A stretch of DNA of 64,000 nt from Natronoglycomyces albus (GTDB lineage Bacteria > Actinomycetota > Actinomycetes > Mycobacteriales > Micromonosporaceae), in the NCBI RefSeq assembly GCF_016925535.1, contig NZ_CP070496.1, positions 62,001 through 126,000 of the forward strand, written 5' to 3'. The notes under the pieces were generated by a model. The model did no database searches and had not been told where the DNA came from. It saw nothing but the letters and a program-made list of their open reading frames with translations. Positions 57,252-63,750 of this stretch are shown here, piece by piece (positions within the stretch are counted from its first letter, which is position 1; each line of letters begins with the position of its first letter). The translations under genes were made by a program, and so were the position numbers.

Positions 57252-57656
57252 TTAGGAAACCCACGTAGGCCCGGCTCTGGCGACGGCATGGGCTGGACCG
57301 AACAGCGCGGCAGCTCCTTTGGCTTCGACACTGACTCTGACTATCACCTCGAAGTCAGTGCTGCGGCACTCGTACAAGGTGGCTGCGTTCTCGGCAGCCA
57401 GGTTGGAGGCCAGGTCGCAGACGGAGTCTGGTTGTGAGGCCACCACACGAGCACCCGCCAAGGCGGCGACGTCCGCAGCACCTTGTGCTTGGTGACGAGC
57501 GACGGTCGCGTTCGACACGGTTATGAAACCGGCCGCTAGGATGACGATGACCGCTAGCACTCCGGTGAGGACGACGCTAGCGCTACCCTCCTCACGGTTG
57601 AGACGTCCGCCTCGGCTGTGTCGTGCATGGCGGCCAGGGATTTTAATCGTGTTCAT
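57252..57656 (-). CDS. TadE/TadG-like secreted protein (Rv3654c type)
   Basis: A 134-residue protein with a short basic head (NREEGSASVVL), a membrane helix (TGVLAVIVILAAGFITVSNA, about 29-50) and an Ala/Val-rich helical continuation TVARHQAQGAADVAALAGA, as in pseudopilin-like minor Tad proteins. A Cys pair (SVCDLASN ... TLYECRS) follows. It matches the last gene of the mycobacterial tad block (Rv3654c). GGAGGGCAACG precedes ATG 57656; it overlaps the upstream TadE-like gene by 14 bp. It is the last gene of the cluster on this strand. Confidence 0.82.
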   Translation of the reverse strand: MNTIKIPGRHARHSRGGRLNREEGSASVVLTGVLAVIVILAAGFITVSNATVARHQAQGAADVAALAGARVVASQPDSVCDLASNLAAENAATLYECRSTDFEVIVRVSVEAKGAAALFGPAHAVARAGPTWVS

Positions 57657-58101
57657 CGTTGCCCTCCACCGGCAGACGAGGTTCCTTGGAAGCCGTGGCC
57701 GATGAGGACACGCTCAAGTCTGGCGTTAGCCCGCCCAGGGGTCGAATAGGTACCTCGACGGTCACCGTCACGGTGTTATGCGATTCGGTGAGCGAAATGG
57801 CGGAACCCGCTGGCACATATGAGCTGGCCGCCACTGTGGCATCTTCTCCCCGTGCGGCTGCGATGGCTCCGCTGTATGCGGCGTCAACGGCGCGAATGTG
57901 GGTGCCCATCGCCGATATCGACCAGATCGCGGCGGCAAGGACTAGCGTCACCACTGGCAAAGCCATAGCCATCTCGGCGGTGGCAAATCCGCCCTCTCTG
58001 CGGGTAGGCGAAGCAGTGGCACGGCCCGATCCGGCCTTGGGGTGGTGGCTGCTTTTTCCTAGTGGTATTTGGTGTGCTGATGCGAATGGTTGCTTGGCCA
58101 A
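57643..58101 (-). CDS. TadE-like pilus protein (Rv3655c type)
   Basis: A 152-residue TadE-like protein. The head to residue 36 is polar and basic (PTRREGGFATAEMAMALPVV), and the sequence GGFATAEMAMALP is the prepilin-peptidase-type cleavage/helix start. It is followed by VTLVLAAAIWSISAMGTHIR and RAVDAAYSGAIAAARGED. The remainder is a small beta-rich domain (HNTVTVTVEVPIRPLGG). AAGGGA 6 bases before TTG 58101 supports that start. It overlaps the next gene by 14 bp. Role: minor pilin or assembly factor of a Tad pilus. Confidence 0.8.
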   Translation of the reverse strand: MAKQPFASAHQIPLGKSSHHPKAGSGRATASPTRREGGFATAEMAMALPVVTLVLAAAIWSISAMGTHIRAVDAAYSGAIAAARGEDATVAASSYVPAGSAISLTESHNTVTVTVEVPIRPLGGLTPDLSVSSSATASKEPRLPVEGNDEHD

Positions 58102-58448: not shown

Positions 58449-58733
58449 CTAGCTAAGAGCCTGAGTGATGAGGGATTCGATGAGATCTTGGAAGAAACCT
58501 GAGTTGGCCACCAAGACCAGAACCCCGGCGAAGGCCACCGCGCCAAGTGTTCCCACCGCGTACTCGGCGGTACTCATGCCCGATTCGCCTCGCAGCCGTT
58601 CTGCAAACCCGTTGCGAGCCGCTCTCCAAAAGCGTTGCCTCACCGCACAGGCCCGTCCAAGCGGCCGTCCAGTGCGGGCCGTGAACGTATGCTGCCCACG
58701 TCGGTGTGTCTGTGATGATGGGGCCGCAGCCAT
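58449..58733 (-). CDS. Flp-like pilin, DUF4244 type
   Basis: About 94 residues if ATG 58733 is used; GTG 58643 would give 64. The C-terminal part is the DUF4244/Rv3656c pilin-like segment: ERLRGESGMSTAEYAVGTLG (the Gly-Met-Ser-Thr-Ala-Glu-Tyr cleavage region with the invariant Glu) then AVAFAGVLVLVANSGFFQDL and a short tail. These small prepilins form the Tad/Flp fibre after cleavage. The frame stays open to 59444 upstream, but that stretch is Ser/His/Arg-rich and not protein-like. It lies between tadC and tadE in the canonical order. No ribosome binding site was seen at either start. Confidence 0.72.
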   Translation of the reverse strand: MAAAPSSQTHRRGQHTFTARTGRPLGRACAVRQRFWRAARNGFAERLRGESGMSTAEYAVGTLGAVAFAGVLVLVANSGFFQDLIESLITQALS

Positions 58734-59493
58734 GCTGGCCGCATGTGGCGTCACTTGGGGCAGTGGGCCCAGCCTTTGTAGACCACTGCGGGCAGTTCGT
58801 CGCCCACCCACTGCCGAGTAGGAGGATGCGGCAGTGTGGCTGGCTGCTTGCGACCGCCCTCCGGCACGTGACGCATACGCAGCCTTTGGCGAGGCCGGAA
58901 CCACCTGATGCCGTGGCGTCCGGATTGGTGGCGCGTCCTTGGCAGGGTCCGGGTGCGGCGAAGGGCGCCGCCGGTGCCGTTGTGCGGTTGATCCCGACCA
59001 CGCGCCACTGTGGTCGCGATAGCTGCTCCGACGACGTTCACGGATCGCCTCAATGTGCCTCATGCGTTCGTGAGACGCATCGTCGGAGCGGCACACCTGC
59101 GAGGGAACCTCGGCCAAGGGCTCGTGGTCGGCGAACTCGTGCCTCCACTGGCGAATCGACGTGGCTGCGGTGTTGGGGCCGTGGTCGCGGTGTGGCGAGC
59201 GCTGTCGCCAAGTCACGTCGCTGTGCGTGGGAATGAGCGACCGGTTGGCCTTGGGTAGATGACCGGGGCTACTTGAACAGTTGAGTCGATGCAAGTGGTG
59301 ACAGGTGCTGCGTCGGCGATGACATGTCGAGGTCCTTTCGCTCTCGCCTGAGGGAACAAATGGTCGGGTGGCCCCCGAATGCCTTTGCGAATGGATCGTC
59401 TGTGCCATGAGTGCTGCTTTCCGGCTGCTGTGAGGCGGCCTCATCGAAGGTGATCGTCGGTATGAATTTGTCTGGAAAAGTCCGCCAGGTCGG
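58734..59493. other. 760-bp gap inside the Tad cluster
   Basis: Between the pilin and the tadBC gene, where other actinobacteria have almost no space. Both strands have long open frames, but their products are low-complexity (Arg/His/Ser-rich or Gly/Arg-rich) and none shows a domain, membrane segment or convincing ribosome binding site. No repeat or transposase remnant was identified. Confidence 0.4.
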
Positions 59494-61080
59494 TCACAGC
59501 GTGACCAAAGTGTTGGCGAGGAGCCCGAATATGACCGGTAGGACTCCCGCGATCACGAACGCGGGCAGGAAGCACAGGCACAATGGCCCGACCAACATCA
59601 CCGAAGCTCGACCGGCGCGAGCGTGAGCTACGTTCTGTTCACAACGACGCAGACCGGCCGCCATTTCCCGCATTCCGTTCGCCAGCGCCGCCCCGGATTG
59701 GTCGCTGCGCTCCAACTGGTCGCATAGACGGTCACGGCCCGGCAGGTCCCCCAACTCCGCTACGGCTTCCCTGGTCGGTGCGCCCATGAGCAGCATTTGC
59801 GCCATGCGGGACAGACGCCCCGATAGCCCAGGCGGCATTGCCGAAGCCACCGCCTGGGCCACCCTGGGGAAGGGGGCTCCCGATCGAAGCCCAGAGGCAA
59901 GCAGATCAAGGCACCACATCCACGAAGGCTTCAACGCCAGCAGCCGTGCCTTTTCCGCACGACCCTCCTTAGAGGACAAAATTCGATGGCAGAGGAATCC
60001 CGCGAGGCTGGCTACCGCGATGCCTGCCCAACCGCTAATACTTGCGACGGCGACGCCACCGACGCAGACGGAAATGATCAGTGGTGCCACCTTCGAGCGG
60101 CGCGAGATTGCCTCAGCCGCAACGGATGTGGAATGTTCCACGTGAAACATTGGTGGTCTCATGTGGCCTCGAACCTGCCTCACGGACAGGGAGCCCGACT
60201 GCTTAGGTCGCGGTTCCGGGAGACATTTAATGGAAGCGAGAATCTTGTACGTCCACATCCACCCCAGCAACTGCAATCCGAGCATTGCCACGACACAGCC
60301 CAAGCCAGGCAGGGTGTGGAGGAGAAATTCGACCGTTCCCGCTCCCATGGATTCACCCAGCGCAACGCCGAACAACGGCAACACCAGAAGCAAACCAGCG
60401 GTGGCTCGCATCGACGAGGTCTGAGCGTGAAGGCGCTCTTCCAAAGAAACCTGGTCGAGCAAATGAGCGCCGAGCGCCTGAGCGATACCGGACGTGGGAG
60501 CCCCCAGCTGTGCGCTGACTTGCCAGGCCGACAGCAGCTGTTCTTTGGCTTGGTTCTCCCCATTGGGCCAAGCCGAAAGCGTCGCGGCCAACGTCCGCTG
60601 TGGATTCGCCCCAGCCTGCAAGTCGGCCGCGAGAAACGAGACCTCCTCGGCGATCCGGTGGCGCGATTCCCGCAGCCGGCCCTCCCTCAGATGCCACAGC
60701 CACGCCACCATTCCCGCCGTGGCGTAGGAAGCGGCGATTAGCCCAGCCGCGAAGCCCGAGAGCAACCCGAACGTCAGCCCAGAGGCCAACCCCGCGCTAA
60801 ACGGAGCCAAGCGGGGATGACTGCGCAGCATCGCAGCGATTTCCATCCGAGATGGGCTCCGCAGCTTGCCCCCACCCGGTGAAGGCGGCGAACCACGCCG
60901 CGCGAACCAAACCCGCCGCCGAGACATCGACACGTGAGAGGCAGCCATGTCAGATGACGCCAAACGATCAGGCAGGACATCGAAGGTTTCACCCTCCGGC
61001 CCTGAGGGCACGCCCCCAACGTCACCGGGGCGCGCATCCGAGACCGACCCGACCAAGGCAGACGCTCCACCACCGTTCAT
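59494..61080 (-). CDS. Fused TadB-TadC-like T2SSF membrane protein
   Basis: A 528-residue protein combining two type II secretion F-like units normally encoded separately (Rv3658c and Rv3657c). Unit 1 (about 80-290): LAPFSAGLASGLTFGLLSG, the cytoplasmic LREGRLRESRHRIAEEVSFL and RATAGLLLVLPLFGVALG. Unit 2 (about 330-528): ISVCVGGVAVASISGWAGIA, LKPSWMWCLDLLASGLRSGA, CEQNVAHARAGRASVMLVGP and a final FLPAFVIAGVLPVIFGLLAN. It forms the inner-membrane platform of the pilus. The start overlaps the tadA stop (ATGA at 61080-61077). An in-frame ATG at the junction (about 60161), with GAGG 4 bases upstream, might allow separate synthesis of unit 2. A perfect parS site is embedded at 60134-60149. Confidence 0.85.
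   Translation of the reverse strand: MNGGGASALVGSVSDARPGDVGGVPSGPEGETFDVLPDRLASSDMAASHVSMSRRRVWFARRGSPPSPGGGKLRSPSRMEIAAMLRSHPRLAPFSAGLASGLTFGLLSGFAAGLIAASYATAGMVAWLWHLREGRLRESRHRIAEEVSFLAADLQAGANPQRTLAATLSAWPNGENQAKEQLLSAWQVSAQLGAPTSGIAQALGAHLLDQVSLEERLHAQTSSMRATAGLLLVLPLFGVALGESMGAGTVEFLLHTLPGLGCVVAMLGLQLLGWMWTYKILASIKCLPEPRPKQSGSLSVRQVRGHMRPPMFHVEHSTSVAAEAISRRSKVAPLIISVCVGGVAVASISGWAGIAVASLAGFLCHRILSSKEGRAEKARLLALKPSWMWCLDLLASGLRSGAPFPRVAQAVASAMPPGLSGRLSRMAQMLLMGAPTREAVAELGDLPGRDRLCDQLERSDQSGAALANGMREMAAGLRRCEQNVAHARAGRASVMLVGPLCLCFLPAFVIAGVLPVIFGLLANTLVTL
60134..60149. promoter_or_regulatory. parS: parS site (ParB-binding)
   Basis: TGTTCCACGTGAAACA on the plus strand equals the classical 16-bp bacterial parS consensus TGTTNCACGTGAAACA with no mismatch. 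It lies within coding sequence (residues FHVEH of the fused TadBC protein). ParB-bound parS sites mark the origin-proximal chromosome region in many bacteria, including actinobacteria. Confidence 0.8.
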
Positions 61081-62498
61081 GCCCCACGCTCCCTAAGGAG
61101 GCGTTCCAACTCCCCATAGACCGCACCTTCCCCGCTACGGTGAAACGCCGTCCGCACCGACAAACCCTCAGAACCGGTCTGCAACAGGCCCACCTCACCC
61201 ACAACCCGCCGATTTCCATCCCGGCGCAGATGCACCACCACCCGCAACGCCGCCTCCAACTGAGCATGCAAACCAGCCCTACTCAACCCATGCGGCAACG
61301 TCAACGCCTCCAGTCGAGCCGGAACATCCGCAGCCGCATTGCAGTGCAACGTCCCCGCCCCACCGTCATGGCCGGTATTCAGAGCCGCCAGCAACTCAGT
61401 CACCTCGGCACCACGACACTCACCGACGATGACCCGATCCGGCCGCATACGCAGCGACTCCCGCACTAGATCCGCCAGCGTGACCACACCCTGCCCCTCA
61501 ACATTCGCGGGCCGCGCCTCCAGGGAAATCACATGCGGATGATCGGGCCGCAGCTCGGCGGCATCCTCAACCAAAACCAGCCGTTCCGAATCGTTCGCCA
61601 ATGACAGCAAAGACGCCAACAACGTGGTCTTTCCAGTACCCGTGCCCCCCGTGACCAGGAAAGGCAGCCGCGCCCGCACCACTCGGTGCAACAAACCAGC
61701 CAACGCCTCAGTCAACGTCTGGCACTCAACCAGCTGCGCCAAAGTAAACGCCCGAGACCGATGCGTGCGAAAACTCAAGTACGGACCACTACCCGCCACC
61801 GGCCGCAACATCGCGTGAAACCGGGTCCCATCGGCCATACGAACGTCCACAAACGGATTTCCATCATCAAGCCGCCGCCCCGCCACCGCCGCCAACCGAC
61901 ACGCGAGCGACCGAACATCATCCTCACCTCCGAGGAGAACGTCGACCCGCTCCAAACCGTCACCACGGTCAACCCACACCCCGTCAACACCGTTCACCAC
62001 CACATCGCTGACTGCCGGATCATTCAGCAACGGTTGAAGCGGGCCCGCCCCAACCAGATCCGCCTCCACCAACTCCGAGACCCGCAAGAGCGAATCGTGA
62101 TCGACCGGGGCGGCATCCGAATCCCGCACCGAACGCACAATTTGAGCACTATGCGGAACCGAGCTCGTCCGGCCCGCCAAGTCGCTACGGACCTGACCCA
62201 CCAATGACCGCTCAGCCATGGCGCTACCCACGGACGACAAAGCCCGCTGATTTCGTGAGCCCGACAGACGTGAAGCACGCGAGGCCACGGCCTCCGCCGC
62301 CGGAGCGCCCTTCCCGGGCCGCCGGAAAAATCGCCCGAAACCTGAAGACGAGCTCACTTCCCGAGCAGAAAACCGGGGCGCGAACACGCGCGGCAAAGGG
62401 GAAAGGTCAGCCCCCTCGGATCGGCGTCCCTCGCGGGCCACTTCAACCCCAGGAACGTCATCGCACCGTTTAGCCGCCACATCGTTCCCTGGGCTCAT
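61077..62498 (-). CDS. tadA: TadA/CpaF-type secretion ATPase
   Basis: A 473-residue hexameric ATPase energising Tad pilus assembly. The first ~130 residues are variable; then an N-terminal domain (LLRVSELVEADLVGAGPLQP, DPAVSDVVVNGVDGVWVDRG) and the RecA-like core: Walker A FLVTGGTGTGKTTLLASLLS, the Asp box VLVEDAAELRPDHPHVISLE, Walker B region LRMRPDRVIVGECRGAEVTE and His box LNTGHDGGAGTLHCNAAADV. ATG 62498 overlaps the ssd stop (TGATGA) with GGAGG 7 bases upstream; a GTG directly before it is less likely. It is translationally coupled on both sides. Confidence 0.92.
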   Translation of the reverse strand: MSPGNDVAAKRCDDVPGVEVAREGRRSEGADLSPLPRVFAPRFSAREVSSSSGFGRFFRRPGKGAPAAEAVASRASRLSGSRNQRALSSVGSAMAERSLVGQVRSDLAGRTSSVPHSAQIVRSVRDSDAAPVDHDSLLRVSELVEADLVGAGPLQPLLNDPAVSDVVVNGVDGVWVDRGDGLERVDVLLGGEDDVRSLACRLAAVAGRRLDDGNPFVDVRMADGTRFHAMLRPVAGSGPYLSFRTHRSRAFTLAQLVECQTLTEALAGLLHRVVRARLPFLVTGGTGTGKTTLLASLLSLANDSERLVLVEDAAELRPDHPHVISLEARPANVEGQGVVTLADLVRESLRMRPDRVIVGECRGAEVTELLAALNTGHDGGAGTLHCNAAADVPARLEALTLPHGLSRAGLHAQLEAALRVVVHLRRDGNRRVVGEVGLLQTGSEGLSVRTAFHRSGEGAVYGELERLLRERGA

Positions 62499-63640
62499 CA
62501 CGCGACCTCCAGCTTCGCATTAACAGGAGCAAATGTCTCCGCACGTCGAAGCAGATAGCCGCACAGCGACCGCACCTCATCCATCGCCCGGCGCTGGCCG
62601 GGAAAGAGCCCTGCCCGTCGCAGTGGAGGCAATGTGCCCTTACGAAGCCACGTGGCGAGTTTCGGTACCGTCGGCAGCGCCCCCCACTGTTCGAGCCCAA
62701 GTTGGTCGGCGACGGACTTTGGAACCACGCGGTTACGGTTACCCCAACCTCGAACCGCGGAGGCAGCGCCTGACCGTTGAACGACTCCCACGTGCGACCA
62801 ATGGGGCCGATACTTCGATGCGACAGTCTGGGCTGCGGAAATGGCCCGCGCGTCCTCGGGGATGACAATCACCCCCGCCGTGCAGAACTGCGCGGCTCGG
62901 GCTGAAGACACATCTGGTTGCCGAGGCAAGTCCACGACCACGACACTTGCGGCGATGCGAGCGGCGTGCAAAATCGCGGCCACGTTCTCCGACGAGGGCT
63001 CGCAAGGGCTGTCTTGGTCGGGCGCCAAGATGTGCAAGCCATGACGATGGGGAAGTTCAGACAGCAGGCGCTGCGGATCGAGCGCGCCCTGGCATTGTGC
63101 GAGTGCTGGCCATCGCCACCCGTGGACGTGTGCCATGCCAGCGGCCACGTCGGCTCCTTGACCCTGTAGATCAAGATCGACCAAGACCGCACGCTTCCCG
63201 CCATCGGCATAGATGGTGGCGGCAGTCAACGCCAGCTGGCTGGCCCCCACACCACCGCTACCGCCGACGAACCCGAGGATTGGGGCGGCAGAGGTGTGAC
63301 CGTTGGCGCGCGTGAATCGGTCCAGCAGCCATCCGGTGGCTTCGGGAAGTTCGATCACAGCCGTGGCACCGAGCTGAATGGCGGGTGGCCACACTGGTTC
63401 TGCTCGCGAGGTTTGTCTCTTGAGGACGATGACGTCGTGTCTGGCAGCAAGGCCAGCCGCCGCGCAGTTGGCCGCTTGGTCGGAGCCGACCAAGACCAAA
63501 GGAGATGTTTGCCAATGCATTCGCGCCTCCTCCAGGGTCGGCACATGCACCAAAGGGTGTCCACATGCGGCCGCGATGGTGGTGACGTGCTTAATGAGGT
63601 GGCGATCGCGGGAAATCAGGAACGATGGAATTGGTCTCAT
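62498..63640 (-). CDS. ssd: Septum-site-determining-like ParA/MinD protein (Ssd/CpaE type)
   Basis: A 380-residue protein like mycobacterial Ssd (Rv3660c) and CpaE. Residues 1-105 form a response-regulator-like head (FLISRDRHLIKHVTTIAAA ... VLVGSDQAANCAAAGLAARH). The ParA/MinD-like ATPase domain begins ILGFVGGSGGVGASQLALTA at about 120: the P-loop has Ala where the catalytic Lys-Thr would be, so nucleotide hydrolysis may be lost or altered. Then come RAVLVDLDLQGQGADVAAGM and SVVVVDLPRQPDVSSARAAQ. It should localise Tad machinery or affect septum placement. AAGGAG before ATG 63640 fixes the start; the frame opens upstream. First gene of the Tad operon. Confidence 0.88.
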   Translation of the reverse strand: MRPIPSFLISRDRHLIKHVTTIAAACGHPLVHVPTLEEARMHWQTSPLVLVGSDQAANCAAAGLAARHDVIVLKRQTSRAEPVWPPAIQLGATAVIELPEATGWLLDRFTRANGHTSAAPILGFVGGSGGVGASQLALTAATIYADGGKRAVLVDLDLQGQGADVAAGMAHVHGWRWPALAQCQGALDPQRLLSELPHRHGLHILAPDQDSPCEPSSENVAAILHAARIAASVVVVDLPRQPDVSSARAAQFCTAGVIVIPEDARAISAAQTVASKYRPHWSHVGVVQRSGAASAVRGWGNRNRVVPKSVADQLGLEQWGALPTVPKLATWLRKGTLPPLRRAGLFPGQRRAMDEVRSLCGYLLRRAETFAPVNAKLEVA

Positions 63641-63687
63641 GTGGCTCCTTGTGGTGAATTCATTGCTAAGAGTTACTTTCCGCCACA

Positions 63688-63750
63688 TGTCAACGGTTGA
63701 CAAGAAAAAAATATTGAGGCTGTGGATAACCTGTCCAGCCCTGTGGATAA
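63688..63750. promoter_or_regulatory. DnaA boxes and palindrome upstream of ssd
   Basis: TGTGGATAA, the exact complement of the DnaA box TTATCCACA, occurs at 63721-63729 and 63742-63750, 21 bp apart (two helical turns). Beside them lie the AT-rich run AAGAAAAAAATATTGAG and the palindrome TGTCAAC-G-GTTGACA (63688-63702). On the minus strand, TTGACA of the palindrome could serve as a -35 element for ssd. Confidence 0.7.

Follow-up and report, generated by a model that had tools for sequence, protein, structure and literature searches.

DnaA, besides its part in replication, is a transcription factor with regulons in Bacillus subtilis, Escherichia coli and Caulobacter, where DnaA boxes lie upstream of promoters that include those of replication genes. 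We know of no DnaA regulon that is defined by a tandem 19-bp pair of boxes or that is composed of DNA-uptake machinery. Clusters of DnaA boxes, such as those of Streptomyces and datA, act as titration sites. Natural transformation depends on a textbook set of proteins, namely a pilus, ComEA/ComEC, ComM, DprA, RecA and SSB. In the competence regulons of Bacillota that are controlled by ComK or ComX/sigma-X, one element is common to the genes of the pilus, comEA/EC, dprA, ssb and recA.

Among Actinomycetota, competence has been studied in Micrococcus luteus, where tad genes are required for transformation (PMC4322843) and the Tad/Flp pilus is used together with comEA/EC (PMC4322843, PMC12849477, PMC8467076). 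Competence control in the phylum was described in 2026 as little known, and upstream control in M. luteus as unidentified; DnaA is not mentioned in that paper (PMC12849477), nor in an earlier regulator screen. In pneumococcus, DnaA level and fork arrest alter competence, an effect that the authors explain by the rate of initiation rather than by the regulatory properties of DnaA; in contrast with the locus described here, the term "DnaA box" is absent from the text of that study (PMC8394987). In the open-licence literature searched, we found no account of competence genes under the control of DnaA boxes.

The present analysis concerns a 64,000-nucleotide stretch of the genome of Natronoglycomyces albus (C1:62001-126000, hereafter the window), in which two DnaA boxes precede ssd, the first gene of a Tad pilus operon. 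Like the regulons of Bacillota, the genes considered here have one element in common; the element itself differs, and the replication initiator would, as we infer, replace a dedicated activator or sigma factor.

The box pair and the ssd-tad operon

Features of the region are given below in window coordinates.

63742..63750, minus strand: DnaA box 1 (upstream), TTATCCACA, with its 5' end 110 bp upstream of the ssd ATG
63721..63729, minus strand: DnaA box 2 (downstream), TTATCCACA, with its 5' end 89 bp upstream of the ssd ATG and a spacing of 21 bp to box 1
63703..63716, minus strand: A/T tract between box 2 and the -35-like hexamer, recognized by eye, possibly an UP element
63688..63702, no strand assigned: inverted repeat TGTCAAC-G-GTTGACA, containing the -35-like hexamer of ssd
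63688-63693, minus strand: TTGACA, the -35-like hexamer for ssd, 27 bp downstream of box 2
63645..63650, minus strand: AAGGAG, ribosome-binding site of ssd, recognized by eye
62498..63640, minus strand: ssd, TadZ/CpaE-like in name and position, without a Pfam match, with homologues in relatives found by sequence search
61077..62501, minus strand: tadA (T2SSE ATPase)
59494..61080, minus strand: tadB/tadC-like gene (T2SSF)
58449..59444, minus strand: open reading frame with a DUF4244 protein as its C-terminal end, pilin-like in position; the real gene is probably shorter
57643..58101, minus strand: TadE-like protein, just under the Pfam cut-off
57252..57656, minus strand: TadE/G-like protein (Pfam Tad)

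As the original prediction had described, both boxes are exact and have the same orientation, 21 bp apart from start to start; they are copies of the nine-mer TTATCCACA that defines DnaA boxes (TTGTCCACA being the form in high-GC actinobacteria), and both lie on the strand of ssd. Four perfect boxes were present in the window compared with a mean of 0.17 and a maximum of 2 in dinucleotide shuffles, and 72 in the 4.0-Mb genome compared with 15 when the pattern was read backwards. The start of ssd was placed, by eye, at the ATG at 63640 behind the AAGGAG. No -10 hexamer was seen by eye 38-42 nt past box 2 of this promoter, and no Rfam match was found in the window.

The A-tract that had been noted next to the boxes is real, and the palindrome that had been grouped with them is present. 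The latter is one of eight perfect 7-1-7 inverted repeats in the window and is therefore unremarkable by itself; with up to 3 mismatches allowed, only two of the 57 regions upstream of ssd had it, that of N. albus being one. The palindrome was accordingly rejected as a conserved operator, and its position beside the boxes is probably incidental.

The operon headed by ssd encodes T2SSE, T2SSF, DUF4244, TadE-like and Tad-domain proteins, and a gene for a HAD-type phosphatase is the divergent neighbour on the other side of ssd. The nearest named matches of ssd were from Glycomyces albidus (41% identity) and G. luteolus (40%). A parS-like site, TGTTCCACGTGAAACA, which we take to be one mismatch from the parS consensus, was noted at 60134-60149, within the tadB/C-like gene and at a distance of 120 kb from oriC; the perfect parS sites, of which there are five, lie at C1:3928805-3933999.

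Conservation of the pair upstream of ssd

Conservation was scored as the presence of two boxes on the same strand, each with at most 1 mismatch from TTRTCCACA, 16-24 bp apart. Upstream of ssd, in N. albus and relatives from the same family and order, the pair was found on the gene strand at 37 of 57 loci (22/30 and 15/27 in two subsets), compared with 2 of 57 on the opposite strand of the same stretches and none in 40 rounds of dinucleotide shuffling; the 57 loci exclude G006, where the ssd match was partial, and no match was obtained in G002, G005 or G041. In a second set, which covered Micromonospora, Actinoplanes, Lentzea, Kitasatospora, Streptacidiphilus, Streptomyces and others, the pair preceded ssd at 46 of 80 loci (opposite strand, 0/80), and at least one perfect box was present on the ssd strand at 59 of 80. 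These counts are not independent since the two sets may overlap or share species and the loci are related. Conservation of both boxes in relatives, which had been proposed as a check, is thus borne out in both sets. The pair was missing from about one third of the 57 loci and about four in ten of the 80, and a perfect box was missing, for example, from several ssd loci of Nonomuraea, Frankia, Catellatospora, Rugosimonospora and Pseudonocardia thermophila.

The same element at other operons

Tandem pairs were not confined to ssd. Genome-wide, 387 pairs (oriC included) were found in 61 genomes compared with 5 for the reversed pattern, and when the genes next to 60 sampled sites were inspected, the ComEA family recurred in four. 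A pair was present within 900 bp upstream of comEA at 35 of 57 loci and within 500 bp at 31 of 57, with none on the opposite strand within 500 bp (0/57); this set excludes G005 and G018, which gave weak HHH matches only, and no comEA match was obtained in G032 or G041. Similar results were obtained for recA (16/30, opposite strand 0) and for yraN, the head of yraN-comM-dprA (16/30, opposite strand 1), while the stretch immediately before dprA lacked the pair at all 30 loci because dprA sits inside its operon. Counts for recA, yraN, dprA and DUF4192 refer to the 30 loci that each search returned, and upstream sequence was short at two of the counted loci (L290, 495 bp; L423, 208 bp). DUF4192 was rejected as a core member since the pair occurred at just 4 of 30 best-match loci, although the copy in N. 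albus has it. Five boxes in an 18-bp array were noted at comEA of G004 (L166), and G004, G007 and G025 have 29-31 tandem pairs each, as if the element had multiplied.

The association was also evident when a sequence-only model, R1, was trained on ssd promoters alone (59 of the 82 that have a pair) and run over 61 genomes with stricter filters. Among the first 121 matches listed, which were classified against partly typed gene tables, 27 were at ssd (the training class); a position no more than 1 kb upstream was seen for comEA in 13, for yraN in 7 and for a DUF4192 gene in 1; of the others, 14 had known members nearby and 59 lay elsewhere. The chance expectation among these 121 was about 0.006 each for comEA and yraN. 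Two of the near matches precede comM genes (Pfam ChlI/Mg_chelatase) in two relatives. At E values up to 1, R1 matched 23 of 30 comEA loci, 16 of 30 recA loci and none of the 22 dprA loci, of 30, that were scanned. Among 30 further matches that were read, 25 fell into six clusters by single-linkage BLAST, and one other was a tadA gene with its own element. The downstream genes were picked by a simple GC-frame procedure, and there is uncertainty over some starts and over the frame of a few genes. The clusters were as follows.

AbiEi/DUF559 nuclease-like, 8 loci: Pfam on 7, with six DUF559 or MTES_1575 matches (some weak) and one AbiEi only
SSB-domain proteins, 5 loci: 5/5 by Pfam
RcpC/CpaB-like, 4 loci: two weak below-cut-off matches, two without match
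M23 peptidases (hydrolases), 4 loci: three Pfam-tested
HTH proteins, 2 loci: one with a GNAT domain
Pair L499 and L505, 2 loci: one tested, with a weak phosphoribosyltransferase match (such as ComF proteins have), frame uncertain

The element is therefore shared among the genes of the uptake pilus, comEA/EC, the comM-dprA operon, recA and ssb genes. Recurrence of AbiEi/DUF559 nuclease-like genes under the shared promoter was noted at L507, L510, L516, L521 and L525 and in relatives, and a DNA-processing role of these proteins in uptake is possible.

The element in the genome of N. albus

The set of genes with the element is thinner in N. albus than in its relatives. One perfect box lies 51 bp before the start of comEA-comEC, in a short intergenic gap, and another 16 bp before the predicted first start of the M23-yraN-comM-dprA operon, all four genes of which were confirmed by Pfam; no perfect box was found at recA. 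Four boxes lie upstream of a gene that was named dnaB-like from its sequence, a parallel to the replication genes in known DnaA regulons. A tandem pair at C1:39996/40016 precedes a DUF4192 gene adjoining dnaE; by eye, this stretch (C1:39996-40024) has the ssd layout of a pair, an A/T tract and TTGACA 26 bp past box 2. Five perfect boxes at C1:188016-188138 fall within a gene for an AAA_10-domain protein that has a Y-P-Q-rich N-terminal region; TAT CCA CAG codons can create such boxes, and their position inside coding sequence led us to reject this cluster as a second regulatory site. Inspection covered the boxes of this genome other than those at C1:2774929, 2975028, 2996591, 3127731, 3305334, 3468661, 3591706, 3609131, 3711512 and 3796201.

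Of the 72 perfect boxes, 12 mark oriC at C1:2270-2739, just downstream of the DnaA C-terminal domain and beside dnaA, and the pair upstream of ssd is 123 kb away.

Promoter architecture

Spacing between the boxes of promoter pairs was 17-21 bp, with a mode of 19. In two of the four promoter classes the pair stands at a fixed distance from the -10 region. A TANNNT hexamer stood 38-42 nt past box 2 in 16/16 recA pairs and 26/35 comEA pairs; three other windows of five bases gave 0, 0 and 0 for recA and 0, 1 and 2 for comEA. None of the yraN (0/14) or ssd (0/36) pairs had the hexamer at that place. A CACGGT-like hexamer, (C/T)A(C/G)G(G/T)T, was found at 38-40 in ssd promoters, with 19 occurrences in 82. 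The motif TA(G/C/A)CA occurred 25-28 nt before box 1 in 19 of 35 comEA, 16 of 36 ssd, 6 of 14 yraN and 1 of 16 recA pairs. A conserved TAGCAGATC-like motif was also noted about 26-27 bp before box 1 in the ssd, comEA and yraN promoters of relatives and is missing from the ssd promoter in the window. In many relatives, LexA-like and PafBC-like motifs were noticed by eye beside the pair in recA promoters but not in the other operons; they resemble the consensus motifs of the LexA SOS box and of PafBC promoters of recA.

Comparison of promoter and oriC boxes

Boxes from 95 promoter pairs and 254 oriC boxes from 19 genomes gave a single consensus, gTT(A/G)TCCACAg, with much the same degeneracy, although the resemblance of the logos is partly by construction because both sets were picked by similarity to the box (at most 1 mismatch). 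Variants ending in C that occur at oriC were almost missing at promoters. Of 61 genomes, 58 had the domain Bac_DnaA_C, with a single match in 57 of the 58 and one fragmentary second match in the other. DnaA is likely the binder of the promoter boxes, since these share a consensus with oriC and the genomes carry one DnaA-type DNA-binding domain, and as predicted binder it ranks ahead of another activator.

Other results weigh against DnaA as the binder, and two indirect tests lent it no support. Of 140 spacings between same-strand neighbours at oriC, 60 were 9-12 and 7 were 17-21, with none at 18-19, so the promoter spacing is not that of oriC. Box preference at oriC and at promoters was without significant correlation across genomes (rho 0.24, p 0.28, 21 genomes). 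In family f4 (G039 and G054, of one genus), box 1 has a C-for-A variant in 6 of 6 pairs (five TTGTCCCCA, one TTATCCCCA), the change being concerted across ssd, comEA, recA and yraN promoters, and the variant was not among the six oriC boxes found in f4. This shift of box 1 could point to another factor.

Discussion

Tandem same-strand boxes at near-fixed spacing precede DNA-uptake and recombination genes in many genera. The boxes upstream of ssd are best explained as an upstream activating element of the ssd-tad promoter and as one example of a conserved promoter class through which the operons for natural transformation would be co-regulated in Actinomycetota, with DnaA as the putative binder and activator. 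We hold this explanation to be probable, and that judgement takes in the proposed regulon, which would comprise the Tad pilus, ComEA-ComEC, YraN-ComM-DprA, RecA, an SSB-domain protein and a cell-wall hydrolase. Cooperative binding of DnaA to the two boxes, some 50-80 bp ahead of the start site, would activate RNA polymerase at the promoters of the regulon; a rise in free or ATP-bound DnaA, for example when replication stalls or re-initiates, would then turn on the machinery for uptake and recombination. Replication-linked control of ssd-tad, which the original prediction had offered, may be read in these terms, and control through the boxes is supported by conservation of the pair, by its orientation toward the gene and by a promoter layout common to other operons.

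The main competing account accepts the same competence-regulon element but assigns it to a dedicated activator with a DnaA-box-like site, DnaA being uninvolved or competing. The direct-repeat spacing of 18-19 that oriC lacks, the concerted change of box 1 in f4 and the want of significant covariation between oriC and promoters all favour such a factor, while the degeneracy of promoter boxes matches that of oriC boxes and no second protein with a DnaA-type domain appeared apart from one fragmentary match, although an activator need not have such a domain. We regard a dedicated activator as unlikely, though with enough in its favour to be taken seriously. It is also conceivable that DnaA acts at the same sites with the opposite sign, repressing these promoters or timing them with the cell cycle, as in other bacteria, where it is both repressor and activator. 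The boxes lie well upstream of the -10 and, in recA and comEA, at a fixed distance from it, a position typical of activators, and repression or timing consequently seems improbable.

Titration of DnaA near the origin, in the manner of datA or the Streptomyces clusters, had been offered in the original prediction next to transcriptional control, together with the remark that the pair is not obviously oriC. The latter proved correct, the origin lying beside dnaA, and the pair was therefore ruled out as oriC. For titration it may be said that perfect boxes are denser toward the origin (45-50 per Mb within 200 kb of oriC, 30 at 200-400 kb and 2-16 beyond), that the enrichment persists when boxes are collapsed into clusters (KS p 0.02), and that in all 20 genomes examined the distance of ssd-tad from dnaA is 6-32% of the replichore arm. 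The Streptomyces clusters resemble the present boxes in being actinobacterial and partly origin-proximal, yet what is found here is a two-box promoter element tied to particular operons. Two boxes are few for titration, and the largest cluster nearby, the five boxes at 188 kb, inflates the density from inside coding sequence. A titration locus would be linked to the origin independently of gene context, whereas the pair follows promoters and gene strand. Since the same pairs also precede recA, yraN, SSB-domain genes and comEA, the last at 30-76% of the arm in 20 genomes, titration is not supported as the main role, and we rate it as highly improbable. Chance or a local oddity has in its favour that the motifs are short and that at least one third of relatives lack the pair at ssd; conservation rules it out, and after the shuffled and opposite-strand controls and the cross-validated model it carries almost no weight.

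DnaA-controlled promoters and competence regulons are both of known kinds, and it is their combination in the present form that appears new. Recognition of ssd-tad as one of several DNA-uptake and recombination operons with a common element changes the meaning of the boxes, and the element names a likely regulon together with a testable regulator, DnaA. It further suggests that DUF559/AbiEi nuclease-like, M23 hydrolase and CpaB-like genes are parts of the uptake machinery. The broadest reading, which we put forward tentatively and at somewhat less than even chances, is that natural competence across a large part of the Actinomycetota may have DnaA as its master activator, acting through tandem boxes at Tad-pilus, comEA-comEC, comM-dprA, recA and ssb promoters so that replication state would switch on both DNA uptake and recombination. 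The on-switch of natural competence that has been missing for these actinobacteria may be this element. If so, Micromonospora, Actinoplanes, Lentzea, Kitasatospora and others would keep a regulated DNA-uptake programme, and horizontal gene transfer in these bacteria would be tied to replication status.
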